DNA of 64,000 nucleotides from assembly GCF_002943465.1 (NCBI RefSeq), contig NZ_PTQY01000003.1, positions 372,001-436,000 of the forward strand, read 5' to 3'. Origin of the DNA: Rhodoferax sp. TS-BS-61-7. GTDB taxonomy: Bacteria > Pseudomonadota > Gammaproteobacteria > Burkholderiales > Burkholderiaceae_C. Both the position numbers and the translations under genes were made by a program. The notes under the pieces are model-generated. The model saw only the letters and a program-made list of their open reading frames with translations. It searched no databases and was not told the origin of the DNA. How positions within the stretch are numbered: position 1 is the first letter of the stretch; every line of letters begins with the position of its first letter. Shown here one piece after another: positions 9,019 to 57,668 of the stretch.

Positions 9019-9906
9019 TCAGCCCGCCTTGCGGGCGCAAATGAAAAATTCGCGGTTGCCGTCGCCGCCTTCGATGGGCGAGTCGAACCACGCGGTGACC
9101 GTCAGGTCCAATTCGGCACAGGCCTCGCGCAGGCGCTGCTCGACGATGGCGTACATGGCCGGGTCTTTGACAATGCCACCCTTACCCACCTGGCCAGGCT
9201 GCAGTTCAAACTGCGGCTTCACCAGGGTCAGCAGGGTGCCACCCTCGCGCAACAAAGGCACGGCCGCGGGCAGCACCAAGGTTTGCGAGATGAAGGACAG
9301 GTCGGCCACCAGCAGGTCAAACGGTGGCGCGAATTCTGGTGGCAAGGTGGCCAGCTCGGCCTCCTCGCGGCTATCGTCGGAGCCGTCAAAACCCTCGAAG
9401 GTTTCTCCGTCTTCTTCTACATCAAATTGGCCTTCAGCCCCCGTACTGTCTGCGTAGGCAGCTATCAAATCTGCAGCAGACAGCGTGCGCGCATTGACAC
9501 TTTCCACACACAAGACCCGGGCGTCCTCGCGCAGGCTGGGGTGCAACTGGGCGCTGCCCACATCCACCCCCACCACCGCAGCGGCGCCGGCTTGCAGCAG
9601 GCAGTCGGTGAAACCACCGGTGCTCTGCCCCACGTCCAGGCAACGCAGGCCTTCCACTGATAGGCCCACGTGTTTGAGGGCTGCCTCCAGCTTCAGGCCA
9701 CCCCGCGACACATAACGTGCCTCGGAGTCGTCCAGCAGCTCGATGGCAGCGTCCTCAGGCACGTCGTCGCCATTTTTGACCACGCGTTTCCAGACCTGCC
9801 CGCCCACTTCCATTTTTTGCCATTGCACGCCATCGGCGATCAGGCGTTGGGCCTGCGAGCGGGTGCTGGCCAGCCCGCGCTGTACCAGCAGTTGGTCTAT
9901 ACGCAT
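9019..9906 (-). CDS. tlyA: TlyA family rRNA methyltransferase with acidic insertion
   Basis: 295 residues. An N-terminal S4 RNA-binding domain (MRIDQLLVQRGLASTRSQAQ, 1-60) precedes an FtsJ-type SAM domain with CLDVGQSTGGFTDCLLQAGA (about 89-108) and LLVADLSFISQ. Family members methylate ribose of rRNA, though the target here is unknown. An extra, very acidic stretch (about residues 143-190) interrupts the domain. Its first 17 residues come from an R1 repeat copy (9429-9478), which explains why this protein is longer than most TlyA (about 245-270). It lies between ahcY (12-base gap) and metF. Confidence 0.88.
   Translation of the reverse strand: MRIDQLLVQRGLASTRSQAQRLIADGVQWQKMEVGGQVWKRVVKNGDDVPEDAAIELLDDSEARYVSRGGLKLEAALKHVGLSVEGLRCLDVGQSTGGFTDCLLQAGAAAVVGVDVGSAQLHPSLREDARVLCVESVNARTLSAADLIAAYADSTGAEGQFDVEEDGETFEGFDGSDDSREEAELATLPPEFAPPFDLLVADLSFISQTLVLPAAVPLLREGGTLLTLVKPQFELQPGQVGKGGIVKDPAMYAIVEQRLREACAELDLTVTAWFDSPIEGGDGNREFFICARKAG
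9429..9478 (-). repeat. R1 repeat copy, in frame inside tlyA
   Basis: 50 bases that align without gaps to the other R1 copies: TGCTGC at one end, TAGCTGCCTACGCA in the core and GGGCTGAAGGC at the other end. It encodes residues 144-160 of TlyA in the sense direction. Confidence 0.75.
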
Positions 9907-15273: not shown

Positions 15274-16107
15274 ATGCAAGCCCTGACCCACTGGCCCGAA
15301 GCCGCCCGCCGCAACATAGTGGGCGTGTTCACCGACATTGACGACACCCTGACCACCGAAGGCACCCTCACGCCCGACGCACTGCAGGCGCTGGCCGACC
15401 TCAAGGCTGCGGGCCTCACCGTCATCCCCATCACCGGGCGCCCCATAGGCTGGTGCGAACCCTTTATGGCTGGCACACAGGGCCCGGCTTGGCCCGTGAA
15501 TGCGATGGTGGCAGAAAACGGGGCAGTGGCTTTTGTGCATAAAAATGGCCTGCAGCCCCCGTTGAATCTGCGCGAGCCGCTATCAAAACTGTACCAACAG
15601 GATGCAACCACGCGCGCCACCAACCAGGCCCGCATGCAGGCGATTGCTGCACAGGTGGTGGCCGAGGTGCCCGGCGTGCAGCTGAGCCGCGACAGCGCCG
15701 GACGCGAAACCGACCTGGCGTTTGACTACGCCGAATTCGCCCGCCACTCGACCGACACGGTGCAGCAGGTGCTGGCCGTGCTGCAACGCGCGGGCATGCA
15801 AACCACCGTGAGCAGCATCCACATCCACGGCTGTTTTGGCGACTTCAACAAATGGCAGGGCGCTTGCTGGATCGCGCAGGAGCTGCTGGGGCGCGACTTG
15901 GGCGCGGAACTGGACCGCTGGGTGTTTGTGGGTGACTCGGGCAACGACCAGGCCATGTTTGAACACTTCACCCACAGCGTGGGTGTGGCCAACATTGCGC
16001 ACTTTGCCCCGCAGCTCACCCACCTGCCACGCTACGTTGCCACGGCAGAACGTGGCGCAGGCTTTGCCGAAGTGGCGCGGGCCATTCTGCAGGCACGCGG
16101 CCTATGA
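15274..16107 (+). CDS. HAD-IIB family hydrolase (sugar-phosphate phosphatase type)
   Basis: 277 residues. HAD motif I is FTDIDDTLT (about 19-27), motif II lies in VIPITGRPIGW, and motif III/IV in WVFVGDSGNDQAMF. The arrangement resembles Cof/mannosyl-3-phosphoglycerate phosphatase-like enzymes that hydrolyse small phosphorylated sugars; the substrate is unknown. An R1 repeat (15547-15597) encodes residues about 92-108. Its stop overlaps the ATG of the following transporter (ATGA), so the two are translationally coupled. Confidence 0.85.
   Translation: MQALTHWPEAARRNIVGVFTDIDDTLTTEGTLTPDALQALADLKAAGLTVIPITGRPIGWCEPFMAGTQGPAWPVNAMVAENGAVAFVHKNGLQPPLNLREPLSKLYQQDATTRATNQARMQAIAAQVVAEVPGVQLSRDSAGRETDLAFDYAEFARHSTDTVQQVLAVLQRAGMQTTVSSIHIHGCFGDFNKWQGACWIAQELLGRDLGAELDRWVFVGDSGNDQAMFEHFTHSVGVANIAHFAPQLTHLPRYVATAERGAGFAEVARAILQARGL
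15547..15597 (-). repeat. R1 repeat copy, antisense inside HAD hydrolase gene
   Basis: Read on the minus strand: TTGGTAC, N8, TAGCGGCTCGCGCA, N10, GGGCTGCAGGC, a gapless match to the R1 consensus. The gene reads through it in frame (residues about 92-108). Confidence 0.72.
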
Positions 16108-19056: not shown

Positions 19057-19078
19057 GGTTTAGGCATCAAACAGGGCG

Positions 19079-19124
19079 CTAGCCCAGGTGGATATTGCGC
19101 AAGCAGCTACGTTTTGTATAGCAA
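19079..19124 (-). repeat. R1 repeat copy after the murA-like gene
   Basis: TTGCTAT, N8, TAGCTGCTTGCGCA, N10, GGGCTAG on the minus strand, a near-consensus copy. It begins three bases after the TGA of the murA-like gene and ends 22 bases before the next gene. Confidence 0.8.
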
Positions 19125-19127
19125 CCC

Positions 19128-21840: not shown

Positions 21841-21875
21841 AATTGCCAAGTGAAGGCAAGTTATGGATGAGATTA

Positions 21876-21925
21876 ACCTCTAGCCTCGGCAGGATCTGCG
21901 CAAGCAGCTATCAAAAATGGAGCGA
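21876..21925 (-). repeat. R1 repeat copy after the DUF296 gene
   Basis: TCGCTCC, N8, TAGCTGCTTGCGCA, N10, AGGCTAGAGGT on the minus strand. It begins one base after the TGA of the DUF296 gene and lies between that gene and the 45-bp palindrome. Confidence 0.78.
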
Positions 21926-21926
21926 T

Positions 21927-22337
21927 TCAGCTTCGCGACCGAATCACCAGCTCGTCATACCCGGTATGTGCGTCCGGTTCGCGGGTGAATTGCCAGTCGG
22001 GCAGCAGGGCCAGCAGCACCTCGGCCGTGGTGAGCACAATGCAGCCCGTGGCCACATGCCCACCCAGTACCTGCCCCGTGGCGGTGGAAATGGCCATGTG
22101 CATGTGGGAGGCGGTCTTGTCACACTCCACCGCCACCGTGCCCGACAGCGTAAGGATTTCCATGCTCTCCGTCAGTCGCGTGGGCTGCTCTGCACCCGCG
22201 AGACGGATACCCGCCGTGGACAGGCTGCCGATGCCGGACAACACAAAGGCGGCGCGGCAGTTTTGGCTTTGGACCGCGGCCTCTAGTGCCGCGCGCAGGT
22301 CTTGGCCGGGGGTGAGGCGGATAGGGAAGGTTTTCAT
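21927..22337 (-). CDS. DUF296/PPC domain DNA-binding-type protein
   Basis: 136 residues, a single PPC (DUF296) domain of normal length. Seen: GQDLRAALEAAVQ, the conserved FVLSGIGSLSTAGIRLAG, SHMHMAIS with metal-ligand-like His, GGHVATGCIVLTTAEVLL. In plants the domain accompanies AT-hooks. Stand-alone bacterial members form trimers and have no settled function. The start at MKTFPIRL is preferred over an ATG nine bases upstream. R1 repeats flank it on both sides (21876-21925 and 22356-22405). Confidence 0.85.
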   Translation of the reverse strand: MKTFPIRLTPGQDLRAALEAAVQSQNCRAAFVLSGIGSLSTAGIRLAGAEQPTRLTESMEILTLSGTVAVECDKTASHMHMAISTATGQVLGGHVATGCIVLTTAEVLLALLPDWQFTREPDAHTGYDELVIRSRS

Positions 22338-22355
22338 GGATTCCATGTTAAATCA

Positions 22356-22405
22356 GCCTCTAGCCAACGCAGATATTGCGCAAGCAGCTATATAAAACAT
22401 AGCAA
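22356..22405 (-). repeat. R1 repeat copy after the histidine kinase gene
   Basis: TTGCTAT, N8, TAGCTGCTTGCGCA, N10, TGGCTAGAGGC on the minus strand, one of the best-preserved copies. It begins one base after the TGA of the histidine kinase gene. Confidence 0.82.
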
Positions 22406-22406
22406 A

Positions 22407-23777
22407 TCAGGCCCTGTACGCTGGCAAAACCACCACAATTTCCAGCCCCGGCCGCGCATTGCGCACGGCGAGGCTGCCGCCATGCGCCTGGGCGACTAGG
22501 CGGCAGAGGTAGAGGCCCAGGCCGACGCCGCCGCCTTCGCGGGTGCGAGCGGCGTCGGGGCGGAAGAAGGGTTGGCCCAGGTTGGGGAGCTGGTCTTCGG
22601 CCACGCCGGGGCCAAAGTCGCGCACGGTGAGTTGCACGGCACCATCCGCCAGCGGCAGGACTTCGATGCGCGGCGGGGCGCTGGCGTGGTTGTTGTGCCG
22701 CAGGGCGTTGTCCAGCAGGTTGCGCACCAGCAGGCGCATGCGGGTGGGGTCCAGCGGCAGCGGAGGCAAGGCAGCGGGCAGCGCGGTGTCGATGTGCGGC
22801 GCGTCCGATCCATCGGGCTGGGCATGCGCACTCTGCAGCTCACACACCACGTCGCACACCAGCGCGGGCAGGTCCACCACCTCACGGTGCAGGGCGGCGT
22901 GCGGGCTGGCCAGGCGTTCGCTTTCCAGCAGGTCGGTCACCAGGTCACGCATCAGGGCCAGGTCGCGCAACAGGGCTTCGCGGTTGGGTTGCAGTTCGGT
23001 GGTTTCGGGCAGCAGTTCGGTGTTGAGGCGCGCGCGGGTGAGTGGGCTGCGCAACTCGTGGCTGATGGCCAGCAAGAGGGTGCGCTTGGCTTCCAGCATT
23101 TGGTGGATGTCGGCCCCCATGGTGTTGATGGTGGCGGCCAGCTCGCCCAGTTCGTCTGGCCGGTGGGCGTGGCGCACCGGGATGTTTTGGGCAAAGTTGC
23201 CCGCGCCAAAGCGCAGTGCACCTGCGCGAATGTCGTCCAGCGGGCGCAGCATGCGACGCACCCACTTGTAGGCCACCCAGGTCAGCAACAACAAGGTAGC
23301 TAGGGTGACCCAGCCGATGAAGCGGGGCTTTTGGTTCCAAGCTTCCACGCTGATACCAAACTGGACCCGGTGTCCGTCGGCCGTGGTGCGCTGGAAGAAC
23401 TTGTACTCATCGCCGGGGCCGTGGTCGTCATACATCCAGTCACGCTCGGGCTCCTGCGGGTGGCTGCGCCAGTTGAGCTGCGGGCCGCTGATGCGGATGC
23501 TCAGGGGCAGGCGCTCGGTCAGGGCCAGGGCCCGCTCGGTGCTGGGCGGACTGCCAATATCGGCGGCCAGGCGATCCACGTAATCGGTGAGCAGGGGTTT
23601 GGCCACGGCGCGCCAACTGGCCCCAATGGCAGCCTGCATGCCAAAGGTAAAAGCGGCCGCCATGGTGAGCGCCAACACCACAAACAGGGCTACCAACTTC
23701 ACGCGCAGCGAGTGCCCCAGCGCGTGTTTGGCACGGCGGTGCGCCATGACACAAAACTTGAGGCTCCGGAACTTCAT
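22407..23777 (-). CDS. sensor histidine kinase (HAMP, HisKA, HATPase)
   Basis: 456 residues. Membrane helix 1 (about 28-50, [20 protein letters not shown]), a periplasmic sensor of about 100 residues, helix 2 (about 155-172, VTLATLLLLTWVAYKWV), then HAMP. The dimerisation helix carries the phosphorylated His in LAISHELRSPLTRA. The ATPase domain has NLLDNALRHN, DFGPGVAEDQL and GGGVGLGLYLC. The start overlaps the stop of the response regulator (ATGA). The operon also holds a Spy/CpxP-like lipoprotein, so a CpxA-like envelope-stress or metal sensor is the best guess. Confidence 0.95.
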   Translation of the reverse strand: MKFRSLKFCVMAHRRAKHALGHSLRVKLVALFVVLALTMAAAFTFGMQAAIGASWRAVAKPLLTDYVDRLAADIGSPPSTERALALTERLPLSIRISGPQLNWRSHPQEPERDWMYDDHGPGDEYKFFQRTTADGHRVQFGISVEAWNQKPRFIGWVTLATLLLLTWVAYKWVRRMLRPLDDIRAGALRFGAGNFAQNIPVRHAHRPDELGELAATINTMGADIHQMLEAKRTLLLAISHELRSPLTRARLNTELLPETTELQPNREALLRDLALMRDLVTDLLESERLASPHAALHREVVDLPALVCDVVCELQSAHAQPDGSDAPHIDTALPAALPPLPLDPTRMRLLVRNLLDNALRHNNHASAPPRIEVLPLADGAVQLTVRDFGPGVAEDQLPNLGQPFFRPDAARTREGGGVGLGLYLCRLVAQAHGGSLAVRNARPGLEIVVVLPAYRA

Positions 23778-27020: not shown

Positions 27021-30000
27021 TCACCGCGCCAGCACTGCCCCCAGCGCCTTGCCCGTGTGGGTGCCCAAGGCCACCACCGCTTCGGGCGTCGTGGCAGCCA
27101 CCACACGGCCACCACCGTTGCCGCCGTCCGGGCCCAGGTCGATGACCCAGTCGGCTTCGGCAATCACGTCCAGGTCGTGCTCAATGACGACCACACTGTG
27201 GCCACCATTGACCAGGCGGTGCAGCACGTGGATGAGTTTTTCCACGTCGGCCATGTGCAGGCCCACGGTGGGCTCATCCAGCACGTAGAGCGTGTGTGGC
27301 ACCTTGTTGCCGCGCTTGCCCACGTCATCGCGCACTTTGCTGAGTTCGGTCACCAGCTTGATGCGCTGCGCCTCGCCACCGCTCAGCGTGGGTGAGGGTT
27401 GGCCCAGCGTGAGGTAGCCCAGGCCCACGTCCTTGAGCAGTTGCAGCGGATGCGCTATCACCGGCATGGCAGCGAAGAAGTCCACCGCTTCGTCCACTTC
27501 CATCTGCAGCACATCACCAATGTTTTTGCCACGCCAGGTGACGGCCAGTGTCTCGGGGTTGAAGCGTGCGCCCTTGCAGGTTTCGCACAGCACTTTCACA
27601 TCCGGCAAAAAGCTCATACCAATGGTGCGTATGCCCTGCCCTTCGCACGATGGGCAGCGGCCTTCGCCGGTGTTGAAGCTGAAGCGGTTGGACGCATAAC
27701 CGCGCGCCTTGGCCTCCAGCGTATCGGCAAACAGTTTGCGAATGGTGTCCCAGAAACCGATGTAGGTGGCGGGGCAGCTGCGTGGTGTTTTGCCGATGGG
27801 GGTTTGGTCCACTTCGAGCACGCGGTCCACGGACTCAAAACCTTCCACGCCTTCGCAACCGGTCCACTGGATTTTCTCGCCCGCGTCCAGTGCATCACGG
27901 CCTGCCTTGGTGCTGCGCTTCTGTACAGCCACCTGCACGTTGGTAAGCAATACGTCGCGCGCCAGCGTGGACTTGCCGGAGCCGCTGACGCCGGTGATGG
28001 CGACCAGGCGTTTCAACGGCACGTGGGCGGTGACGGTTTGCAGGTTGTGCAGGTTGGCGCCGTTGACGGTGAGCCAGTCTATTTTTGGTTTTGGCCCGTT
28101 AGCTTTTGCTGCGCCCGCAGCGGGCAGCCCTGGGGCGGGCTCCTCGTCGCGTAGCTCAATGTCGTCACCCACCCCAGGGCTACCCGCTGCTGCGACGGAC
28201 ATTTGGGCGGTGCGGCGGTCTGCCAACGCGGCGTATTCGGCGGCTACCTTGGTGCGCTCGGCAAGTTCTATATTTGCCATTTCGCTGGCGCTCACTTGCG
28301 CCGCGGCCACGGCAGCTTTAGCCGCTTTTGCGCTGAGTTTCTTACCTGGCTTAGCGCCAACACCCGCGGGGGGAGTCGATGCGCCGGGTGACGATTTCGT
28401 GGTCCCGTATGAGGAACCCGGCGAAACGGCTTCCGCCGCGTCGAGCGCCAATGTCTCCGAATGGCTAACCATTCCCCTGCGAACAGCCAGCGGATGCTTC
28501 ATCGCATGCAAAAGGTAGCGCCCCGTCTGCGATTCAGGCGCGTTTTGAACGTCCTCAATCGACCCTTGCGCCACCAACCGCCCACCGCGCTTGCCCGCAC
28601 TGGGGCCAATGTCGATGATGTGGTCCGCATGACGAATCGTGTCTTCGTCGTGCTCCACCACCACCAGCGTGTTGCCCTTGTCGCTCAAGCTCTGCAAAGC
28701 GCCCAGCAAAATCTTGTTGTCCCGCGCATGCAGACCAATGGTGGGCTCGTCCAGCACATAACACACACCTTGCAAATTGCTACCCAGCTGCGCGGCCAAA
28801 CGGATGCGCTGTGCCTCTCCACCCGACAGCGTGGGTGCGCCCCGGTCCAGCGTCAGGTAGCCCAGGCCCACTTCTTCCAAAAACTCCAGTCGGCTCTTGA
28901 TCTCCGGGACCAGGTCGCGTGCAATGTCGCCTTCGCGTGTGGTCATGCCACCCGCCACTTGCAGCGTCTGCACCCACTTGCGCACATCGGTCACGCTCAG
29001 GCGTGCAATGTCGGTGATGCCCACATTCGCGAACTTCACATGGCGCGCCGTGGCGTTCAGCCGCGTTCCGCTGCAGGTGGGGCAAGTCGCGTCATGCAGG
29101 TCTTCAATGTCGGCCTCGGCAAAGGTCTGCTCGCGGCCCTTGTTGTCATCGTCCTTCACCGAATCGTCAAACACCTTGCGCTGCTCTTTGGTCAGCGCGA
29201 CACCGGTGCCCACGCAATCGAGGCACCAGCCATGCTTGCTGTTGTACGAGAACAGGCGCGGGTCCAACTCGGCATAGCTGGTGCTGCACACCGGGCAGGC
29301 GCGCTTGGTAGAGAACACCTGCACCTTGCCAATACCTGCTGCGGGCGTGCCGGCCAGCATGGCCTCACGCAGGCCACCAATCTCGCTCAGCACATACACC
29401 ACGCCCTTGCCATGCGTGAGCGCATCGGCCAGCGCCTGGCGCAGCGCGAGTTCATTGGATGGCGTCACGTCCAAGCTCGCCACCGGCAGCTCGATGTTGT
29501 GCTCCTTGAAACGGTCAATGCGCGGAAAGCTGGTGGTCGGCAGAAAGTTGCCATCCACACGCAGATGCGTAAAGCCACGCGGCCGCGCCCAGTCCGCCAG
29601 CTCGGTATAAACGCCCTTGCGGCCTTGCACCAGCGGCGCCAGCAGGCCAATGTGCTGGCCACGGTAGTTCTTCAGCAACTGCGCCGCAATGCTGTCCGCC
29701 GACTGCGGCTCCACCGCCGCACCGTCCTTGTAGCAATGCTGCGTGCCCAGCTTCACATACAGCAGGCGCAAGAAGTGCCAAACCTCGGTGGTCGTACCCA
29801 CGGTGGACTTGCGCCCCCCGCGCGACAGCCGCTGCTCAATCGCCACCGTAGGCGGAATGCCGTACACCGCGTCCACCTCCGGCCGCCCCGCGGGCTGCAC
29901 GATAGAACGCGCGTAGGCGTTCAGCGATTCCAGATAACGGCGCTGGCCTTCGTTGAACAAAATGTCAAACGCCAGCGTCGATTTGCCGGAACCGGACACA

Positions 30001-33000
30001 CCGGTCACCACGCTGAACTTGCCACGCGGAATGTCCACAGACAGCGACTTCAGGTTGTGTTCCTTCGCATTAACGATACGAATGGAATTCGATGCGTCAG
30101 CGAGCAACGCGCCGGAGGTGGATGGGCTTGCGCCGGGTGACGATATTGAGCTACGCGACGAGGAGCCCGGCGCAAGCCCGTCCGCCGCAGCCCGCACCAA
30201 ATACTTGGCCGACGGCTCCGCCACCTCATGCACCACACCCATCGCAGCAGCGTAATCGCGCAATGCCTGCCCGGTGTGCGAGGTTGCATGCAACATCACA
30301 TCCTCAGGCGTGCCATGCGCCACCACTTCACCACCGGCATCCCCACCCTCAGGCCCCAAATCAATCAGCCAATCGGACGCCCGAATCACATCCAGGTTGT
30401 GCTCAATCACCACCAACGAGTGGCCCGCATCCAATAGCTTGCGCAACGCACGCATCAGCTTGGCAATGTCGTCAAAGTGCAAACCCGTGGTCGGCTCGTC
30501 GAGCATGAAAAGCGAGCCACGCTTGGCCAAGAACTGGGCGCTGGCGCTTTTGCCCTTGGCCGCTTCCGCCAGAAAGCCCGCCAGCTTGAGGCGCTGCGCC
30601 TCACCACCCGACAACGTAGGCACCGGCTGCCCCAGCTTCACATACTCCAGCCCCACATCCACAATCGGCTGTAGCACGCGGATCACATCGCGGTCCGCAC
30701 TGAACAGGTCGGCCGCTTCGCTGACCGTCAGGTCCAGCACATCGGCCACATTGACATTGCGGCCCTTGCGTTCAATGGTGACTTCCAGAATCTCGGGCCG
30801 GTAACGCTTGCCATCGCAGTCCGGGCAGCGCAGGTACACGTCGCTCAGGAACTGCATCTCCACGTGCTCAAAGCCGGAGCCGCCACAGGTGGGGCAACGC
30901 CCATCGCCACTGTTGAAGCTGAACTTGCTGGCCGTGTAGCTGCGCTCCTTGGACAAGGCCGCACCCGCAAACAGCTCGCGGATCGCGTCCCATGCCCCCA
31001 CATAACTCACGGGGTTGGAGCGCGCCGTTTTACCGATGGGCGACTGGTCCACAAACACCACTTCGCTGAGTTGCTCGGCACCCAGCAAGCGCGCGTGCGC
31101 TCCGGGCGTCTCGGTCGCCTTGCCGAAGTGGCGCAAGAGCGCGGGGGCCAACACGTCCTGAATCAGCGTGGACTTGCCGGAACCCGACACTCCGGTCACG
31201 CAGACCAAGCGCTGCAGCGGAATTTCTACCGACACGTTCTTCAGGTTGTGCTCGGTCACGCCTTCCAGCACCAGGCGCGGCGTGTTGGGCGCCACCATGC
31301 GCTTGAAACCCATGCCCACCTGCTTGCGGCCGCCCAGGTAAGCACCGGTCATGGTGTCCGCGCTCTTCAAGGCTTCGGTCGTGCCGTCAAACACAATCTG
31401 CCCGCCCTTCTCGCCCGGGCCGGGGCCCATGTCGATCATGCGGTCCGCCGCCAGCATCACAGCGGGGTCATGCTCCACCACCACCAGCGTATTGCCCGCA
31501 TCACGCAGGCGCTGCATGGCCACGATGATGCGGTTCATGTCGCGCGGGTGCAGGCCAATGCTGGGCTCGTCCAGCACAAACAGGGTGTTGACCAGCGAGG
31601 TACCCAGCGCGGTGGTGAGGTTGATACGCTGCACCTCACCACCGCTGAGCGTGCGGCTTTGGCGGTCCAGCGTGAGGTAGCCAATGCCCACGTCGCACAG
31701 GTATTTGAGGCGCGTCCCCACCTCTTCGAACAGCAACTTCAGCGTCTTCTGCTCGGCCTCGGAGGCGGTGTTTTTCTCCGGCGGGGCTGAAGGCGGGGAA
31801 GCGCCGGGCGCCTCACGCATTTGCTGCGCAACTGCAATGTCGGCACCCGACGCTTCCCTGCCCTCAGCCTGGCTGGGGGCGGCAGCAACATCCAACTGCA
31901 ACTGCAGCGAATCAAAGAAGCGTTTCAGTTTGTCCAGTGACATCAGCATCATGTCGTGCAAACACAAGCCCGGTAGCGCCTCCAGTTGATCGCGCGTCCA
32001 CTTCACACCTTGCGGCATGAAACGTTTGGACGGAGGCAACACGGCATCGGTTTGTTCCTTCGTTCCAATGCGCCACAACAAACTCTCCGTCTTCAGCCGC
32101 GCACCACCACAGGTGCCACAGGGCGTGTAGCTGCGGTACTTGGACAAGAGCACACGAATGTGCATCTTGTAGGCCTTGCTCTCCAGGTACTCAAAGAAAC
32201 GGTCCACGCCAAACCAGTGCTGGTTCCACTTGCCGTTCCAGTTGGGCGAGCCCTTGTAGACCCAATTCTTCTGCTCCTCAGTCAGCTTGTACCAAGGGGT
32301 ATCCCGCGGAATGCCGGCGGCCTCGGCGTGGCGCATCAGGTCATCCTGGCACTCTTGCCAGGCGGGGGTCTGCATGGGTTTCACAGCACCCGCGCGCAGA
32401 GTCAGCTTGTCGTTCGGAATCACCAGCCCATAGTCCACCCCCACCACCCGACCAAAACCGCGGCAGGCTTCGCAGGCGCCCACGGCGGAGTTGAAGCTGA
32501 ACATGGACGCAATCGGGTCCGTGTAGCGCAGATCACTCTGCGGGCAATGCAGGCCGGTGGAGAAGCGCCACAGCGTGGGCGCGACATTTGCTACAGTTTC
32601 AGGGGCTGCTTGCGCAGTATCCACGGGTGCTAGAGCCTCATTTAGCACATAAACGTTGAGGCGACCGCTGCCACGCTTCAAGGCTACTTCGATGGCTTCC
32701 AGCACGCGGGCCTTCTCCACACCGTCGATGCGGAACCGGTCTGCCACCACGTCGAGCACCTTGCGGGGGCCGCTGACCGTGGCCACCTCACGCTCCGCTT
32801 GCACCCGCGTGAAACCACTGGCGCTGAGCCACTGGGTCACTTCCTCCTGCGAGGTGCTGGCCGGTAACTCCACCGGAAAGGTCAGTACCAGGCGTGGGCC
32901 CGAAACCTCCGCAGCGCGACGTACCAGCTCCGCGTAAATCGTCTCGGGCGTGTCGTGCTGCACCGGCAGCGCGGTGTCTTTGTCGAACAGATTACCCGCG

Positions 33001-33347
33001 CGGGAAAACAGCAGCTTCAGGTGGTCGTTGAGCTCGGTCATCGTGCCCACGGTGGAGCGGCTGGAGCGCACGGGGTTGGTCTGGTCGATGGCGATGGCCG
33101 GGGGCACGCCCTCCACCTTGTCCACGGCGGGTTTGTCCATCCGGTCCAGAAACTGGCGCGCGTAGGCGCTGAAGGTTTCCACGTAGCGGCGCTGGCCTTC
33201 GGCGTACAGCGTGTCAAACACCAGGCTGGACTTGCCCGAGCCGCTGGGCCCGGTCACCACGGTCAGTTCGCCAGTGCGAATGTCCAGGTCAAGGTTCTTG
33301 AGGTTGTGCTGCCGCGCTCCGCGAATGCGGATGGTTCCCTGGGACAT
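27021..33347 (-). CDS. uvrA: double-length excinuclease UvrA (tandem fusion)
   Basis: 2108 residues, more than twice the usual 940. Two full UvrA units are joined: about 1-1050 and 1085-2108, giving four ATPase sites. Walker A motifs GPSGSGKSS (33-41) and GVSGSGKST (about 716, 1114 and 1782) are visible. Signature motifs (TLSGGE) and zinc fingers (e.g. [32 protein letters not shown]) are intact in both halves. UvrA recognises DNA damage for nucleotide excision repair. The halves are divergent, so this is an old fusion rather than an assembly error; similar giant UvrA proteins exist in other Betaproteobacteria. Linkers carry four conserved-loop hairpins and one R1 repeat, all in frame. A standard uvrA may exist elsewhere. 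Confidence 0.93.
28117..28190 (-). repeat. conserved-loop hairpin, family A copy 1 (in uvrA)
   Basis: 24-bp arms (28117-28140 and 28167-28190, three differences, all wobble-compatible on the minus strand) around a 26-base loop that starts GACGA and ends GAGGA. It encodes residues about 1720-1744 ([14 protein letters not shown]). Confidence 0.8.
28366..28439 (+). repeat. conserved-loop hairpin, family A copy 2 (in uvrA)
   Basis: 24-bp arms (28366-28389 and 28416-28439, five differences) and a 26-base loop with the same GACGA and GAGGA ends; 16 of 26 loop bases match copy 1. Orientation is opposite to uvrA. It encodes residues about 1637-1661. Confidence 0.68.
30116..30189 (+). repeat. conserved-loop hairpin, family A copy 3 (at the UvrA fusion junction)
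   Basis: 24-bp arms (30116-30139 and 30166-30189, four differences) and a 26-base loop identical to copy 1 in 25 positions, while the arms differ widely. Opposite in orientation to uvrA. It encodes residues about 1054-1078, exactly the linker between the two UvrA halves. Confidence 0.8.
31785..31869 (-). repeat. conserved-loop hairpin, diverged family A copy 4 (in uvrA)
   Basis: 24-bp arms (31785-31808 and 31846-31869, three differences) and a 37-base loop. On the minus strand the loop region keeps CGACATTG and GAGG with an insertion of about ten bases relative to copy 1. It encodes residues about 494-521, which include [15 protein letters not shown]. Confidence 0.6.
32588..32637 (+). repeat. 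R1 repeat copy, antisense inside uvrA
   Basis: TTGCTAC, N8, GGGCTGCTTGCGCA, N10, GTGCTAGAGCC, gapless with the consensus. UvrA reads it in frame as residues about 238-254 ([15 protein letters not shown]). Confidence 0.8.
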
Positions 33348-36112: not shown

Positions 36113-36769
36113 TCAGGCCGAGCGCAAGGGTATACCCGATGGCCAGCCTTGCACGCGGTTCCAGCGCGTGTCAGCGTCGCTGCCTACCAAGCTGGCGTCG
36201 CCCCCCAGGTAGGCGCGCAGCATCGGCAGCGCGTCCAGCCCCCAAAACACTTTGCCATCCACCTCAAAACTGGGCACACCAAACACCTCACGCGCAATCG
36301 CCTCGTCGGCATGGGTTTTGAGTTGGGCCTTCACGGCATCGCTACCCGGGTCCTGCACGGGCGCCAGGTCTTGGGCAACTGTGGCCAAGCGTTGTGCATC
36401 ACCCGCATCGGCCCCGCCCACCCACACGTGGCGGAACAGGGTTTCACACACATAACGGTTGGGCTGGCCCTGTGCATCGGTGGCCACGGCCAGGCGCAGC
36501 AAGCCCAGCGGGTTGAAGGGGTGCACCGCCGGAAAGTCCAGCGCCACGCCGTTGCGCTGCGCCAGCCACTGCACGTGGCGGTAAATCCAATGGCGCTTGG
36601 GCGGCACTTCGGCCGGGCCCAGCACCGCGTTGTGTTTGAGCAGCCCCCCCAGAAACACCGGCTTGTAGTGCACCTGGTAACTGAGGCCCTGCAGTGCGCG
36701 CGGCAGCTCCTCAAACGCCAGGTAGGCGTAGGGCGAAATGAAGTCGAGGTAGAAGGTGATCTGGTGCAT
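36113..36769 (-). CDS. 2-hydroxychromene-2-carboxylate isomerase/DsbA-like (GST kappa) protein
   Basis: 218 residues of the DsbA-like thioredoxin fold with helical insert. Seen: FYLDFISPYAYLAF at the N-terminus (Ser in place of the redox Cys, as in HCCA isomerases), then FGVPSFEVDGKVFWGLDALPML near the end with the cis-Pro loop. Such enzymes use glutathione in isomerisation or conjugation. The substrate here is unknown. It is last in the leucine-degradation unit, 24 bases after the ybaK-DUF1289 gene. Confidence 0.85.
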   Translation of the reverse strand: MHQITFYLDFISPYAYLAFEELPRALQGLSYQVHYKPVFLGGLLKHNAVLGPAEVPPKRHWIYRHVQWLAQRNGVALDFPAVHPFNPLGLLRLAVATDAQGQPNRYVCETLFRHVWVGGADAGDAQRLATVAQDLAPVQDPGSDAVKAQLKTHADEAIAREVFGVPSFEVDGKVFWGLDALPMLRAYLGGDASLVGSDADTRWNRVQGWPSGIPLRSA

Positions 36770-36793: not shown

Positions 36794-37561
36794 TCAGGCA
36801 AAGGCCTCGGGGTGGGTTTCGCGCAGGCGCTGCGTGATGTGGCTCCACATCACTTGCTTGCCCGCGTCGTCACTGCGGCCCCATTCGCGGATCTCGTCGA
36901 TGGTGCGGAAGCAGCCCTCGCACAGTCCGCTACCGGTGTTCATGCGGCAGACGTTGACACAAGGACTAGGCACGTTTTCGGCCACAGCACCCACAGATAA
37001 TGCGCGAGCAGCTAGCATTTTCATAGCATTTTGGCGCACCAGCAGGTCCAGCTCGCTCTCGGCGTCCGGCGCCTCCACCACATCGGCCACCGGTGCGCCG
37101 GTCAGCGCCACCAGGTGCTCGGGGTGCAGCTTGAACACGCCATGCGGGTGGCCGGCCGCGGCCCACACCTCGTCAAAGCGGAACAGTTCCTGGTCAATCA
37201 GCGTGACACCGGGCATGGCGTGCGCCACCGGGCTCACCCCACCAATGCTGAAGCCGGTGCGCTCTTTCACAAACGCGGCATTGGCCCGGCCCAGCGGCCC
37301 TACCAATGCGGCCACCTTGGCCTCGTCCACACGGCGGTCGCCGGAGGCAACGACCAGCACCGCCACACCGTCCTCAATGCGTTTGAAGATGATGCTCTTG
37401 GCGATCTGGCCCACGGCCACGCCCAGCGCATCGGCGGCCTGCTGTGCAGTGCGCGCGGCGCCATCCAGCATCACTGGGCTGTGCGGGTGGTTCTTCTCTT
37501 GCAGGGCTGCAGCCACGCGCTGCACGCCTTCGGGTAACTCAGTCAATTCAGCTCCACACAT
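36794..37561 (-). CDS. YbaK/EbsC aminoacyl-tRNA deacylase fused to DUF1289
   Basis: 255 residues. Residues 1-165 are a YbaK-type editing domain (AKSIIFKRIEDGVAVLVVAS, GFSIGGVSPVAH, FRFDEVWAAAGHPHGVF), which clears mis-charged Cys- or Pro-tRNA. Residues 198-250 are a DUF1289 domain with four Cys (SPCVNVCRMNTGSGLCEGCF, then EIREWGRS), a probable metal site. The two domains are normally separate proteins. The linker (178-194) is encoded by an R1 repeat, so the repeat probably produced the fusion. It starts 8 bases after mvaB. Confidence 0.88.
   Translation of the reverse strand: MCGAELTELPEGVQRVAAALQEKNHPHSPVMLDGAARTAQQAADALGVAVGQIAKSIIFKRIEDGVAVLVVASGDRRVDEAKVAALVGPLGRANAAFVKERTGFSIGGVSPVAHAMPGVTLIDQELFRFDEVWAAAGHPHGVFKLHPEHLVALTGAPVADVVEAPDAESELDLLVRQNAMKMLAARALSVGAVAENVPSPCVNVCRMNTGSGLCEGCFRTIDEIREWGRSDDAGKQVMWSHITQRLRETHPEAFA
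36980..37029 (-). repeat. R1 repeat copy at the YbaK-DUF1289 junction
   Basis: ATGCTAT, N8, TAGCTGCTCGCGCA, N10, GTGCTGTGGCC on the minus strand. It encodes NAMKMLAARALSVGAVA, the linker of the fusion protein, in the same direction as the gene. Confidence 0.8.
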
Positions 37562-37569: not shown

Positions 37570-38478
37570 TTATCCCAGTCGCTTGGTCAGCAGTGCATTG
37601 GCTGCGCGGGAATGCGGCTTGCGCTGCAGGAAGTCGCTGATGAACTTGCCCGCGTCGATGAGCTTGTCCAGGTCAATCCCGGTTTCAATGCCCATGCCGT
37701 GCAGCAGGTAGACAACATCTTCGGTGGCCACGTTACCCGTGGCACCTTTGGCATACGGGCAGCCGCCCAGGCCGGCCGACGAGGTGTCGTAATGCCATAT
37801 GCCCATCTCCAGGCAGGCCAGCGTGTTGGCCAGTGCCATGCCATAGGTGTCGTGGAAGTGACCCGAAACCTGGTCCACACTGTAGTACTGCAGCGTGGCG
37901 TCCAGCGCGCGCTGCACCTTGAGCGGCGTACCCACACCAATCGTGTCGGCCACGCCCACATGCTCCACACCAATGTCCTTCATGAGCCGCGCCACCAGCG
38001 CCACACGTTCGGGGGCAATCTCGCCCTCGTAGGGGCAACCCACGGCGCAGGAGATGGCGCCGCGCACCGCAATGCCGGCCGCCTTGGCCGCCTGCGCCAC
38101 GGGGCGGAAACGCTCAATGCTTTCCTCAATGGAGCAGTTGATGTTCTTCTGGCTGAAGGCCTCGCTGGCTGCACCAAACACCACGATCTCGTCGGGCTTG
38201 GAGAGCACCGCCGCCTCATAGCCTTTCATATTGGGCGTGAGCACCGAGTAGCGCACACCCGGCTTGCGCTGGATGCCCGCCATCACCTCGGCGTTGTCGG
38301 CCATCTGTGGCACCCACTTGGGGCTGACGAAACTGGTGACTTCAATTTCTTTCAGCCCCGCGTCCTGCAGGCGGTGCACCAGTTCCACCTTGACGGCGGC
38401 CGGTACAGGCTCCTTTTCGTTCTGCAGGCCGTCGCGCGGGCCCACGTCGATGATTTTGACTTTGCTGGGAATGGCCAT
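37570..38478 (-). CDS. mvaB: hydroxymethylglutaryl-CoA lyase
   Basis: 302 residues, usual length. Splits HMG-CoA into acetyl-CoA and acetoacetate, the last step of leucine degradation. Seen: KIIDVGPRDGLQNEKEPVPA with the metal-binding Asp, GHFHDTYGMALANTLA and the family signature SSAGLGGCPYAKGATGN with the catalytic Cys. It lies in the liu cluster behind the dehydrogenase gene (35-base gap). Confidence 0.97.
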   Translation of the reverse strand: MAIPSKVKIIDVGPRDGLQNEKEPVPAAVKVELVHRLQDAGLKEIEVTSFVSPKWVPQMADNAEVMAGIQRKPGVRYSVLTPNMKGYEAAVLSKPDEIVVFGAASEAFSQKNINCSIEESIERFRPVAQAAKAAGIAVRGAISCAVGCPYEGEIAPERVALVARLMKDIGVEHVGVADTIGVGTPLKVQRALDATLQYYSVDQVSGHFHDTYGMALANTLACLEMGIWHYDTSSAGLGGCPYAKGATGNVATEDVVYLLHGMGIETGIDLDKLIDAGKFISDFLQRKPHSRAANALLTKRLG

Positions 38479-39487: not shown

Positions 39488-41512
39488 TCAGGCGGCCACC
39501 TCCAGGCGCAGCAGCTCGGCCCCTTCGGTCACCTGGTCACCGGGCGCAAACAGCAGCTCGGCCACGGTGCCGTCGGCCGGCGCAGCAATGGTGTGCTCCA
39601 TCTTCATGGCCTCCATCACGGCCAGCGCCTGGCCCTTGGTCACCGCGTCACCCGCCTTCACCGCAAACGACACCACCTTGCCCGGCATGGGCGCCGTCAG
39701 GCGGCCTCCCTCGGCATGGGTTTCACCGGCATGGGCCAGCGCGTCAATTGCTACGATTTGTATAGCGCCTTGCGCATTAAATACGTGGGCTACATCGCCA
39801 TTTCGATAGATATGGGCTACGACACGCTGCGCACCGAACTGCAGGTCCAGAGCGCCGTTGGCGGCAACAGTCCACTGCAGCGGTAGGGCCTGCCCCGCCA
39901 CGGCCAGCGTGTAACTGCCGCGCACCGTGGTCAGCACTGCAGTGTGAGACTCGCCTGCGTATTCCAGCGCAAAACCGCGCACCGAGGGACCGTGTGAGCG
40001 CCAGCCATCGCGCTGCGCCCAGGGGTCGCGCCAGCCCGTCGCATCGGTCTGCACGCCCTGGTCCAGCTCGGCCTGCAGAGTGTGCGCCACTATGGCCGCA
40101 GCTGCCAGCGGCAGGCCCAGCTTGTCCTGGTGGAACAGCGCGGCGGCTTCGCGCGGAATCAGCGCCGTGTCCAAGTTCGCCTGGGCGAACGAGGCGCTGG
40201 TGGTGACGTGGCGCAGGAACTGCACATTGGTCGCCAGCCCCACGATATGGGTCTGCGCCAGCGCGGCGTCCAAACGCGCCAACGCCTCTTCGCGCGTGGC
40301 GCCGTGCACGATGAGCTTAGCCACCATGGAGTCATAGAACGGGCTGATGGTGTCACCCTGGCGCACGCCGGAATCCACCCGCGTGCCGTGGCTGGCGCGC
40401 TCAAACGTCACATGCGCAGGCAGGCTGTAGACCTGCAGCGTGCCGGTGGCGGGCAGGAAGTTGTTGTCGGGGTTTTCGGCGCAAATGCGTGCCTCGATGG
40501 CATGCCCCTGGATCTTCAGCTCATGCTGTTGCAGCGGCAGCGGCTCGCCGGACGCCACACGCAGCTGCCACTCCACCAGGTCTTGCCCGGTGATGGCTTC
40601 AGTGACGGGGTGCTCCACCTGCAGGCGCGTGTTCATCTCCATGAAGAAAAACGTCATGGCGCCGTCGGGCTTTTGCTCGACGATGAACTCCACCGTACCG
40701 GCACCCACGTACTGGACCGCGCGCGCCGCGGCCACTGCCGCCTCGCCCATTTGCTGGCGGAAGGCCTCGGTCATGCCGGGCGCGGGTGCCTCTTCCAGCA
40801 CCTTCTGGTGGCGGCGCTGTACCGAGCAGTCGCGCTCGAACAGGTACACATAGTTGCCCAGCGTGTCGCCAAACACCTGGATCTCGATATGGCGCGGACG
40901 CTGCACATACTTCTCGATCAGCACCGCGTCATCGCCAAAGCTGTTGATGGCCTCGCGCTTGCACGACGCCAGCGCGGCGGCAAAGTCTTCCTCCTTGTCC
41001 ACCGCACGCATGCCCTTGCCACCGCCCCCTGCGCTGGCCTTGATGAGCACGGGGTAACCAATGCGGTCGGCCTCGCGCTGCAACAACGCGGGGTCCTGGT
41101 CATTGCCGTGGTAACCGGGCACCAAAGGCACGCCGGCCTTTTCCATCAACTGTTTGGACTCGGCCTTCAGCCCCATGGCCAGGATGGCCGATGCGGGCGG
41201 GCCGATGAACACCAGCCCCGCCTTGGCACAGGCCTGGGCGAACTCTTCGTTCTCGCTCAAGAAGCCGTAGCCTGGGTGAATGGCCTGCGCCCCCGTGGCC
41301 TGCGCCGCGGCAATGATTTTTTCCCAGCGCAGGTAGCTGTCCTTGGGCGCGCTGCCGCCAATGTGCACGGCCTCGTCACACGCGGCCACGTGTTTTGCGT
41401 TGGCATCCGCATCGGAGTACACGGCGACGGTTTTGATGGCGAGTTGCGCAGCCGTAGCGGCCACGCGGCAGGCAATCTCTCCCCGATTGGCAATCAGAAT
41501 TTTGGTGAACAT
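39488..41512 (-). CDS. liuD: methylcrotonyl-CoA carboxylase biotin-containing subunit
   Basis: 674 residues, the length of an alpha subunit. Biotin carboxylase domain (1-450): ILIANRGEIACRVAATA, GGGGKGMRAV and FMEMNTRLQVEHPVTEAI. C-terminal biotinyl domain has VMEAMKMEHTI with the biotin Lys. It charges biotin with CO2 for transfer to 3-methylcrotonyl-CoA by the liuB product. Residues about 573-589 come from an R1 repeat read antisense (DVAHVFNAQGAIQIVAI), between the BT domain and the biotinyl domain. Separate propionyl-CoA or acetyl-CoA carboxylases are alternatives, but the operon fixes the role. Confidence 0.95.
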   Translation of the reverse strand: MFTKILIANRGEIACRVAATAAQLAIKTVAVYSDADANAKHVAACDEAVHIGGSAPKDSYLRWEKIIAAAQATGAQAIHPGYGFLSENEEFAQACAKAGLVFIGPPASAILAMGLKAESKQLMEKAGVPLVPGYHGNDQDPALLQREADRIGYPVLIKASAGGGGKGMRAVDKEEDFAAALASCKREAINSFGDDAVLIEKYVQRPRHIEIQVFGDTLGNYVYLFERDCSVQRRHQKVLEEAPAPGMTEAFRQQMGEAAVAAARAVQYVGAGTVEFIVEQKPDGAMTFFFMEMNTRLQVEHPVTEAITGQDLVEWQLRVASGEPLPLQQHELKIQGHAIEARICAENPDNNFLPATGTLQVYSLPAHVTFERASHGTRVDSGVRQGDTISPFYDSMVAKLIVHGATREEALARLDAALAQTHIVGLATNVQFLRHVTTSASFAQANLDTALIPREAAALFHQDKLGLPLAAAAIVAHTLQAELDQGVQTDATGWRDPWAQRDGWRSHGPSVRGFALEYAGESHTAVLTTVRGSYTLAVAGQALPLQWTVAANGALDLQFGAQRVVAHIYRNGDVAHVFNAQGAIQIVAIDALAHAGETHAEGGRLTAPMPGKVVSFAVKAGDAVTKGQALAVMEAMKMEHTIAAPADGTVAELLFAPGDQVTEGAELLRLEVAA
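39748..39797 (+). repeat. R1 repeat copy, antisense inside liuD
   Basis: TTGCTAC, N8, TAGCGCCTTGCGCA, N10, GGGCTACATCG on the plus strand. The gene reads it in the same frame as the copies in uvrA and liuB. Confidence 0.75.
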
Positions 41513-42320: not shown

Positions 42321-43928
42321 TTACATGCGGAAGACACCGAACTTGGTGTCTTCAATCGGCGCATTCAATGCCGCACTCAGGCCCAGGGCCAGCACGCGGC
42401 GCGTGTCGGCGGGGTCGATCACACCGTCGTCCCACAGGCGGGCGCTGGCGTAGTAGGGGTGGCCCTGTTCGTCGTACTGGCGGCGGATCGGCGCCTTGAA
42501 AGCCTCTTCTTCCTCCATGCTCCAGGCGCCGCCCTTGCCTTCAATGCCGTCGCGCTTGACCGTGGCCAGCACGCTGGCCGCCTGCTCGCCGCCCATGACG
42601 CTGATGCGCGCGTTGGGCCACATCCACAAAAAGCGCGGGCTGTAAGCGCGACCACACATGCCGTAATTGCCCGCGCCAAAGCTGCCACCAATGATGATGG
42701 TGAACTTGGGCACAGCGGCAGTGGCCACGGCCGTGACCATCTTGGCGCCGTTGCGGGCAATGCCTTCGTTCTCGTACTTGCGGCCCACCATGAAGCCGGT
42801 GATGTTCTGCAAAAACACCAGCGGGATCTTGCGCTGGCAGCACAGCTCGATGAAGTGGGCGCCCTTGAGTGCCGATTCGCTGAACAGAATGCCGTTGTTG
42901 GCAATGATGCCCACCGCCATTCCCTCGATGTGCGCAAAACCGGTCACCAGCGTGGCGCCGTAGCGCGGCTTGAACTCGTGGAACTCGCTGCCGTCCACGA
43001 TGCGGGCGATGGTTTCGCGCACATCAAAGGGCTTGCGGGTATCGGTAGGAATAACCCCGTACAGCTCTTCCGCTATATATTTAGGAGCTACTGGCGCAAT
43101 AACGGCGAAGGCTTGAGGCTTCTTTTTATTCAAATGGGCGACCGCCTGGCGGGCCAGGGCAATGGCGTGCAGGTCGTTCTGCGCCAAGTGGTCGGCTACG
43201 CCGCTAAGCCGCGTGTGCACATCGCCACCGCCCAGGTCTTCGGCGGTCACCACCTCACCGGTCGCCGCCTTGACCAGTGGCGGACCGCCCAGAAAGATGG
43301 TCCCTTGGTTCTTCACGATGATGGTCTCATCAGACATGGCCGGCACATAGGCGCCACCGGCCGTGCAACTGCCCATGACCACGGCAATCTGCGCAATGCC
43401 CTGCGCGCTCATGTTGGCCTGGTTGAAGAAGATGCGGCCAAAGTGGTCGCGGTCGGGGAAGACCTCGTCCTGGTTGGGCAGGTTGGCGCCGCCGCTGTCC
43501 ACCAGGTAGATGCAGGTGAGGTTGTTTTGCGCTGCGATCTCCTGTGCGCGCAAATGCTTTTTGACCGACAACGGGTAGTAGGTGCCGCCCTTCACGGTGG
43601 CGTCGTTGCAGACGATCATGCAGTCCACCCCGCTCACACGGCCAATGCCCGCCACGATGCCGGCGCCGGGCGCGGCGTTGTCGTACACATTGAGCGCGGC
43701 CAGCGGGGCCAGCTCCAAAAATGGCGTGCCGGGGTCCAGCAGCATGGCCACGCGGTCGCGCGGCAGCAGCTTGCCGCGGGCCACATGTTTGGCACGGGCC
43801 GCCTCGCCGCCGCCTTCTGCAATGCGGGCCACCTGGGCCTGCAGGTCGTCCACCAGGGCGCGCATGGCGCTGGCGTTGGCCGCAAAGTCGGCCGAGCGGG
43901 GGTTGAGCTGGGATTCCAGAATCGTCAT
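42321..43928 (-). CDS. liuB: methylcrotonyl-CoA carboxylase carboxyltransferase subunit
   Basis: 535 residues, normal for the beta subunit. N- and C-terminal carboxyltransferase halves: [36 protein letters not shown] and [37 protein letters not shown]. Transfers the carboxyl group from biotin to 3-methylcrotonyl-CoA. First gene of the cluster, 122 bases from the divergent AraC-type regulator. An R1 repeat encodes residues about 271-287, the hinge between the two halves. Confidence 0.97.
43070..43119 (+). repeat. R1 repeat copy, antisense inside liuB
   Basis: CCGCTAT, N8, GAGCTACTGGCGCA, N10, AGGCTTGAGGC on the plus strand. liuB reads it as [17 protein letters not shown], in the same frame as the copies in uvrA and liuD. 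Confidence 0.72.
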
Positions 43929-52624: not shown

Positions 52625-52634
52625 GGTCATTTAG

Positions 52635-52684
52635 CATCCTAGCCCACGCAGAACAAGCGCGAGCAGCTCCTCAATTTATAGCAA
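52635..52684 (-). repeat. R1 repeat copy covering the thiolase stop codon
   Basis: TTGCTAT, N8, GAGCTGCTCGCGCT, N10, GGGCTAGGATG on the minus strand. The last codons of the thiolase gene (Leu-Leu) and its TAA lie within the repeat. Confidence 0.78.
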
Positions 52685-53857
52685 CTCCAGCGCCAACGCG
52701 GTGGCTTCACCACCACCAATGCACAAAGTTGCCACGCCCCTCTTCAGGCCACGTGCCTTCAGCGCGTGGATCAAAGTCACCATGATGCGCGCACCGGACG
52801 CGCCAATCGGATGGCCCAGTGCGCAGGCGCCGCCGTTCACGTTCACCTTGTCGTGCGGAATATGCAGCTCGGCCATCAGCGCCATGGGCACCACGGCAAA
52901 GGCTTCGTTGATTTCCCACAGGTCCACGTCTTCTACCTTCCAGCCGGCCTTGGCCAGCAGCTTTTGCGTAGCACCTACGGGGGCGGTGGCAAACCAGTTG
53001 GGCTCTTGCGCGTGGGTGGCGTGGGCCACGATGCGGGCCAACGGCTTGCAGCCCAGTTCGGCGGCGGTGCCGGCGCGCATCATCACCATGGCCGCAGCCC
53101 CGTCGTTGATGGAACTGCTGCTGGCGGCGGTGATGGTGCCGTCTCTTTTGAACGCGGCCTTGAGCGTGGGGATCTTGTCGAATTTGATCTTTCCAGGGCC
53201 TTCGTCCACGCTGATCTGTACCTCGCCTGCGCGGGTCTTCACGGTCACGGGGGTGATTTCCGCCTCAAACGCTCCACTTTTAATCGCTGCTTGCGCACGC
53301 TGCACGCTGGTGGTGGCGAAGTTGTCTTGTTGTTCGCGGGTGAAGCTGTACTTGGCAGCGCAGTCTTCGCCAAAGGTGCCCATGGAGCGGCCGGCCTCGT
53401 AGGCATCTTCCAGGCCGTCCAGCATCATGTGGTCCATCACGCGGTCGTGGCCGATGCGGATGCCGCAGCGGCCCTTGAGCAGCAGGTGTGGCGCGTTGGT
53501 CATGCTTTCCATGCCGCCTGCCACCAGCACATCGTGGCTGCCGGCCAGCAGCATGTCGTGCGCAAACATGGCTGCGCGCATGCCGGAGCCGCACATCTTG
53601 CTCAAGGTGACCGCGCCCGCGCTCTTGGGCAGGCCGCCCTTAAACGCCGCCTGGCGCGCAGGCGCCTGGCCCTGGCCCGCCATCAGGCAGTTGCCAAACA
53701 GCACTTCAGTGACCAGCTCCGGGCTGATGCCCGCGCGCTGCACGGCAGCCTGGATGGCGGCACCGCCCAGGTCATGGGCGGCAAGGCTGGAGAAATCGCC
53801 CTGAAAGGCCCCCATGGGGGTGCGGGCGGCGCTGACGATCACGATGGAGTCTGGCAT
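52676..53857 (-). CDS. acetyl-CoA C-acyltransferase (thiolase)
   Basis: 393 residues, usual thiolase II length. Nucleophile Cys in LSKMCGSGMRAAMFA, His in CALGHPIGASGARIM and second Cys in VATLCIGGGEATAL. It makes or cleaves beta-ketoacyl-CoA, e.g. acetoacetyl-CoA, which would link to the acetoacetate from mvaB. A 28-bp perfect palindrome sits 30 bases upstream. Its C-terminus and stop come from an R1 repeat. Confidence 0.95.
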   Translation of the reverse strand: MPDSIVIVSAARTPMGAFQGDFSSLAAHDLGGAAIQAAVQRAGISPELVTEVLFGNCLMAGQGQAPARQAAFKGGLPKSAGAVTLSKMCGSGMRAAMFAHDMLLAGSHDVLVAGGMESMTNAPHLLLKGRCGIRIGHDRVMDHMMLDGLEDAYEAGRSMGTFGEDCAAKYSFTREQQDNFATTSVQRAQAAIKSGAFEAEITPVTVKTRAGEVQISVDEGPGKIKFDKIPTLKAAFKRDGTITAASSSSINDGAAAMVMMRAGTAAELGCKPLARIVAHATHAQEPNWFATAPVGATQKLLAKAGWKVEDVDLWEINEAFAVVPMALMAELHIPHDKVNVNGGACALGHPIGASGARIMVTLIHALKARGLKRGVATLCIGGGEATALALELL

Positions 53858-57666: not shown

Positions 57667-57668
57667 CC

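Follow-up and report, generated by a model that had tools for sequence, protein, structure and literature searches.

The cores of known DNA uptake sequences are about 10–12 nt long. In the Neisseriaceae and Pasteurellaceae these sequences (DUS and USS) are described as present in many copies, both in and between genes (PMC2397512, PMC3630211, PMC2346458, PMC1939737), and they show dialects (PMC3630211). The repeat R1, the subject of this report, resembles them in its high copy number, its occurrence in coding and intergenic DNA alike and its lineage dialects; it is far longer, however, and the parallel extends to copy number, in-gene placement and dialects only. ComEC was tried as a correlate of R1 and rejected, being present in 29 of 30 genomes, R1-rich and R1-free alike, and the sole genome without it (G026) is R1-rich. 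Rickettsia palindromic elements (RPE), which are in-frame insertions in coding genes, are like R1 in that repeat DNA is translated within proteins, and unlike it in that R1 adds no residues in three conserved genes. REP-type repeats are also short, present in many copies and often found just after a gene (PMC3733652), but R1 has no supported hairpin.

Two other described repeats can be compared with R1. In Polaromonas naphthalenivorans, whose genus belongs to the same family, the motif pair ATAGCT(N)22CAAAAG is reported in 125 copies, of which 101 are intergenic, 18 are in genes and 6 overlap gene ends; it often lies about 50 bp from the adjacent genes, and Rhodoferax ferrireducens T118 is the genome richest in significant motif pairs, with 140 (PMC5217627). 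The pair starts with the R1 core ATAGCT, whereas its CAAAAG half has no match in the R1 consensus, and the passages of that paper that concern it are statistical in approach and deal with neither fusion nor coding overlay nor dialects (PMC5217627). An earlier statistical survey may thus already have picked up part of R1, as this pair. The beta-proteobacterial repeat element (BRE) is about 90 bp long, has 69% GC in Bordetella and is reported in four copies in R. ferrireducens (PMC3110155). It is, like R1, a short repeat also present in Comamonadaceae that is usually intergenic, with some copies wholly within coding sequences; R1 is about 62 nt long, has 42–57% GC in the window and occurs in at least 150 places in this genome, and on this comparison of descriptions, not of sequences, BRE seemingly differs from R1. 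Our searches for literature on Comamonadaceae or Rhodoferax repeats and on Comamonadaceae uptake sequences found nothing; DUF1289 is mentioned in four papers, but a search for work naming it together with YbaK found none.

The R1 motif in the window and the genome

R1 has an approximate consensus of TTTGCTAYnnTTTTAGTAGCTGCTTGCGCAnTATCyACGGGGGCTAGAGGCCnATTTG and an information content of about 45 bits (0.663 x 68), and all 150 candidate places that were scored in the 4.19-Mb genome match it, so that 150 is a lower bound. The window (the whole 64,000-nt stretch of Rhodoferax sp. TS-BS-61-7 DNA analysed here) contains eleven clear copies, one of which lies in the linker of the fused gene discussed below. 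Six others are in genes: antisense in genes for an acetyl-CoA acetyltransferase (thiolase; 53263..53325, plus strand), a methylcrotonyl-CoA carboxylase beta-type protein (MCC-beta; 43065..43127, plus strand), a biotin carboxylase-type protein (39742..39805, plus strand), UvrA (32582..32645, plus strand) and an HAD-IIB hydrolase (15539..15600, minus strand), and in sense direction in a TlyA-like gene (9420..9481, minus strand). The remaining four are at gene ends, all on the minus strand; two begin at a same-strand stop codon (22347..22411 and 21867..21930), one lies directly after such a codon (19066..19127) and one overlaps the 3' end of the thiolase gene (52628..52688). There is also a partial R1-like match of 12–14 bits at 57629–57667 (minus strand). 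A census of 46 rows, made up of the window and the 30 best-scoring loci of the genome (some overlapping loci are counted twice, and a simple ORF rule was used), has 19 rows whose start falls between -11 and +12 nt relative to a stop codon on their own strand; 18 rows lie in genes, 12 of these antisense. The statement in the preliminary description that R1 usually follows a stop codon is therefore half true.

In the five R1-bearing relatives compared (G099, G034, G007, G083 and G001), each of the six other in-gene copies is matched at the corresponding position in all five genomes, with an R1 E-value no higher than 1e-3. The linker copy can be aligned in all five as well, yet has no R1 match at E 1e-3 there. 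The gene-end copies at 19066, 21867, 22347 and 52627 have R1 matches in one, none, four and two of the five, respectively, the missing ones often being due to an alignment that does not span the copy.

An RNA hairpin as the cause of R1 conservation was rejected, since the consensus structure is weak and there is no covariation; no conserved RNA fold is supported in R1, with eight weak pairs and no compensatory changes. A search of the window with Rfam gave only TPP and SAH riboswitches (61822–61922 and 11519–11626, both minus strand) and no match at any of its R1 copies. Several other repeats were seen. A strong inverted repeat with 36-nt arms and a 7-nt gap lies at 52546–52624, and its sequence recurs 44 kb away at 8051–8106, perhaps as a second repeat family; a 44-nt direct repeat, 89% identical and 871 nt apart, lies at 25330–25373 and 26201–26244. 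The uvrA-type ORF (27021–33347, minus strand) encodes 2108 amino acids, about twice the usual UvrA length, and has internal repeats, as would be expected if two UvrA units had fused in tandem. In genome G000, R1 copies lie at near-equal distances from three contig ends (C1:124-185, C14:112-174 and C11:112-172; the first two in L090 and L102), all on the minus strand, and may reflect a shared repeat at assembly breaks.

The ybaK-DUF1289 fusion in the genus and the family

The fused gene (36794..37561, minus strand) is an ORF that encodes 255 amino acids, a YbaK/EbsC-like tRNA-editing domain followed by DUF1289. The editing domain (PF04073, residues 35–152, 37106..37459, minus strand) has a Pfam E-value of 1.4e-23, and its nearest solved protein by sequence is TTHA1699 (2cx5); it belongs to the PF04073 superfamily, and its score of 48 bits for TIGR00011 (YbaK Cys-tRNA(Pro) deacylase) is well below the curated whole-protein cut-off of 153.25 bits. 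The DUF1289 domain (PF06945, residues 199–245, 36827..36967, minus strand) carries four cysteines and scores 63.8 bits (E 1.3e-17), above the gathering score of 27 bits. Between them lies a linker of residues 166–198 (36968..37066, minus strand), within which the R1-like copy (36980..37032, minus strand) reads in sense direction over about residues 177–194. This segment encodes an alanine-rich stretch that is predicted to be helical, the helix being placed at residues 170–190 by an AlphaFold model of modest confidence (mean pLDDT 63), too weak for a fold search. The gene is flanked upstream by an HMGL-like gene (37570..38478, minus strand) and downstream by a DSBA-like gene (36113..36769, minus strand).

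With an R1 model built from the ten other window copies, the linker segment is matched at 37031–36980 (minus strand) with 24.0 bits (E 1.3e-6 over the window), whereas 500 codon shuffles of the fused gene reach 6.8 bits at most. With a second model, whose 31 rows comprise 26 from the genome outside the window and 5 from within it (the linker held out), the score is 24.6 bits (E 6.6e-7), a value that 500 synonymous recodings of the segment all fail to reach. The fused ORF is thus real, as are its two domains and the R1-like linker, and the preliminary description, which had reported the fusion of a YbaK-type domain with DUF1289 and a sense R1 copy at residues 178–194, was correct on both points. 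The repeat lies at the fusion joint, where repeat-mediated gene fusion would place it.

Among 100 genomes of the genus, 99 have a match; 31 carry an unbroken fusion and 14 have adjacent but separate ybaK and DUF1289 genes, in G087 the two share a reading frame that one TAG interrupts, in G068 the fusion is cut by a contig end, and the rest have mostly weaker or unlinked matches only. The order HMGL-ybaK-DUF1289-DsbA is common to the fused and split loci of the genus wherever both neighbours are found; the exceptions are L043, which has neither, L028 and L031, which have no HMGL match, and L048, which is cut. In the wider family 248 of 299 genomes have a match at 1e-15, and the pair is mostly adjacent, with a frame-2 offset, in the 27 loci returned by the search and the 60 retrieved by position. 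After removal of duplicates and of loci with DUF1289 more than 300 nt away (five loci had no DUF1289 nearby and four no ybaK), the genus and named outgroups give 152 loci, 41 fused and 111 split; of the latter 13 are in frame 0 and 98 in frame 1 or 2. The unfused genes usually overlap or nearly touch in different frames. The N-terminal tail of DUF1289 varies widely in length across the family, and R1-less tails of the same length and shorter ones both exist. A plasmid origin of the fusion was rejected, as none of the 54 matching plasmid records covers 80% of the query.

The preliminary description had proposed that the protein arose by loss of the ybaK stop codon with read-through into a downstream DUF1289 gene, R1 usually following a stop codon, and had suggested a search for close relatives with separate genes and R1 between them. 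Adjacent pairs with R1-like junction DNA do exist, but in the 14 split loci of the genus it is the opening codons of DUF1289 that consist of R1-like DNA; for R1, ten of these loci score at least 9 bits, two less than that, and two give no score. Repeat-mediated fusion would have the repeat between the unfused genes and outside both of them; in the split relatives R1 is instead already within the DUF1289 ORF, and so not a non-coding stretch that was later translated. Loss of a stop with read-through is plausible from a state like that of G087, with its single in-frame TAG; most split pairs are in different frames, however, and stop loss alone would not fuse them. Nor is the locus a recent snapshot of fusion, as the R1-type groups (L001 and L003–L022) account for 21 of the 31 genus genomes with the fusion, each from a different species. 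The origin proposed for the fusion is thus only partly supported.

The same fusion also occurs where R1 is nearly absent. The preliminary description had named the fusion with a conserved linker in genomes without R1 as what would refute its model, and this is largely what is seen. Eleven genomes of the same genus, clade B (L024–L031 and L046–L048), all carry it; seven of them (G018, G061, G077, G014, G073, G037 and G068) have no R1 match, three (G053, G097 and G006) have one, and G041 has nine. The nine matches of G041 (contamination 6) are on the small contigs C253, C158, C325, C263, C232, C307 and C279, with the fusion on C26, and assembly contamination is a possible reason for them. The clade B linkers have the same length as the R1-type linker and match it without gaps (z 3.1–4.4, p 0.0005–0.0015 against their own shuffles, in a comparison anchored at the SPC motif; the eleven sequences are related and are not eleven independent tests). 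Ungapped matches are also found in Variovorax L067, L071 and L075 (z 4.7–5.1), from genomes without R1 matches, and the matches of L135, L141, L122, L066, L068, L173 and L065 to the R1-type linker fall short of p 0.05. Further fusions in genomes without R1 matches are L129, L168 and L177. Because the same fusion with an alignable linker of the same length is present in clade B genomes almost free of R1, R1 is not needed for the fusion, and it probably did not make it.

The explanation we favour, and consider fairly probable, is an ordinary fusion in place of two adjacent genes that carried along an old DNA-level R1 motif. Neighbouring operon genes for a YbaK-like tRNA-editing protein and a small DUF1289 protein would have been joined either by a frame change together with loss of the ybaK stop or by a single in-frame stop loss from a G087-like state, and the R1-like DNA already at the first codons of DUF1289 would have been carried into the linker without being the cause of the fusion; the fused form, rather than the split one, would be the derived state, and a DNA-binding or uptake protein acting in trans would recognise R1 and maintain it. 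Split and fused genes carry the R1-like motif in corresponding positions, which argues for this, as do the conserved gene order, the fusion in genomes almost free of R1, and the synonymous conservation and branch spelling described below; against it, the variable DUF1289 tail leaves room for an ancient insertion, about 45 bits is much for a motif that arose by point changes, and the linker copy, unlike the six other in-gene copies, has no R1 match in the five relatives at E 1e-3. On a quick tree that has many open forks, parsimony requires eight or more changes. A single fusion for all 41 fused loci is not rejected at 0.05 (p-AU 0.094), though its log-likelihood is lower by 66.7, and neither is one clade for the fused groups A, B and C (p-AU 0.53 without L023 and 0.396 with it, these groups having been picked after the tree was seen).

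This last result is compatible with a different history, in which clade B once had R1 in its linker and lost the spelling in a genome-wide decay of R1, so that R1 could still have founded the linker. Loss of the spelling is seen in L017, a fused locus of G052 (a genome with only 16 R1 matches) in which the linker peptide is kept but recoded with GC-rich codons. This history would, however, need a founder insertion, of which no empty site gives evidence, and the Variovorax-type tails would likewise have to be decayed R1; we think it rather unlikely.

R1 within coding sequence

The observed score of each of the seven in-gene window copies, five of which did not contribute to the model, lies beyond all of 500 synonymous recodings. 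In same-genus genomes that are free of R1 or poor in it, the segment aligns without gaps for thiolase (G061, G077, G018 and G053) and for MCC-beta and biotin carboxylase (both in G061 and G077), and the solved thiolase 8gqk and the solved MCC beta subunit 3u9r also align across it without a gap. Relative to repeat-free orthologues, R1 therefore adds no residues in thiolase, MCC-beta or biotin carboxylase. The uvrA and HAD copies are in loops whose length varies among relatives. On these alignments, R1 in the three conserved genes overlies older sequence and did not enter by simple insertion.

In an older form of the model in the preliminary description, a small mobile R1 would have inserted just behind the ybaK stop long ago, lengthened the DUF1289 N-terminus in frame and so enabled a later fusion. 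The 19 of 46 census rows that begin near a same-strand stop are what such an element would leave, as is the R1-like DNA that in many split relatives separates the DUF1289 core from the stop of ybaK, and L072, L073, L083, L085, L086, L088, L200 and L205, which have no R1 match at the junction, have very short tails with 20–38 nt from stop to core. Genomes without any R1 match nevertheless have tails of the same length that can be aligned to the R1-type tail, and some carry the fusion; R1 overlies native sequence without an indel in the conserved genes, and the six other in-gene copies are at the same places in all five relatives. We regard this insertion as unlikely, and fusion in place around an existing motif remains the explanation we prefer.

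The R1-like codons at the junction are conserved more strongly than the protein accounts for. A score above 3 bits is found at 61 of 151 junctions; for 55 of the 61, 200 synonymous recodings drawn from the gene's own codon usage all stay below it, and in the other six 1 to 7 reach it. When fused and split R1-type loci are compared at four-fold degenerate sites, identity is 0.668 for the linker, against 0.494 in DUF1289 and 0.469 in ybaK, where the highest of 165 overlapping windows gives 0.612; among the fused R1-type loci it is 0.714 in the linker versus 0.568 in ybaK (best window 0.680), and among the split ones 0.635 versus 0.521. These comparisons are unfiltered by R1 score, with L043 left out of the split group and L020–L022 out of the fused group. 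Nine loci in genomes without R1 matches have no four-fold excess in the linker (0.652 versus 0.658 in ybaK). Clade B does show some excess (0.671 in the linker versus 0.556 in ybaK, though below its best ybaK window of 0.732), and this excess weakens the contrast.

The spelling of R1 differs between branches. A model of the other branch's R1, made from 32 copies in three genomes with none from DUF1289, has a spelling of about TAGCTGCTTGCGCTTGnTGGaCGGGCGCTGGAGGCC. In the 20-row tree branch that holds those three genomes, 15 DUF1289 junctions score, of which 13 fit their own branch's spelling better and 2 the home spelling, and 33 of the 36 genus loci score; the home spelling is the better fit for 24 of them and the other spelling for 9 (Fisher p 1.6e-4, with ancestry ignored). 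The window's own linker is among the nine, by 0.8 bits (25.5 with the other-branch model and 24.7 with the home model), and L185 scores 52 bits with its own-branch model and 21 with the home model. On these scores, the DUF1289 copy tends to be spelled as R1 is elsewhere in its branch. A DUF1289 copy of at least 9 bits is present in 26 of 33 R1-rich genomes (at least 15 matches) and 1 of 18 R1-poor genomes (at most 3 matches), leaving 7 of the 33 R1-rich genomes without one at this junction. Of the 61 genomes in which R1 was counted, 55 have a fetched junction, 4 of them being intermediate and left out, and for the genomes at the top of the count the R1 match numbers are at least 84. It is very improbable that the junction signal is instead a protein-level one, a conserved alanine-rich helix with AT-rich codons near a start codon, because, although the LxARA peptide is kept in L017 where the R1 spelling is lost and the segment is at the ORF start in split genes, synonymous recodings with the gene's own codon usage fall short of the score, the signal remains even where fusion has made the segment internal, its spelling tends towards that of R1 in the branch, and 17 of the 18 R1-poor genomes have no junction copy of at least 9 bits.

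R1 as a candidate recognition motif

Within the account of an in-place fusion around an older DNA motif, a broader reading of R1, which we put forward only tentatively, is that it is a chromosome-wide DNA recognition motif of this Comamonadaceae-type family, with a role in uptake, nucleoid binding or segregation. Such a motif would have branch dialects, many copies and old fixed positions, and would be written over coding sequence so that it chooses codons and even residues; it would survive fusion because it is read as DNA, and the DUF1289 start, later the fused linker, would be one such site, spelled in the dialect of its branch. To our knowledge no R1-binding protein has been described.

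The fusion itself is ordinary, and the locus should not be cited as a case of repeats building new proteins. If the reading of R1 as a recognition motif is true, a long DNA signal that shapes coding sequence, is held at orthologous positions and is spelled by branch would be either a further instance of uptake-sequence-like evolution or a new chromosome-organising site.
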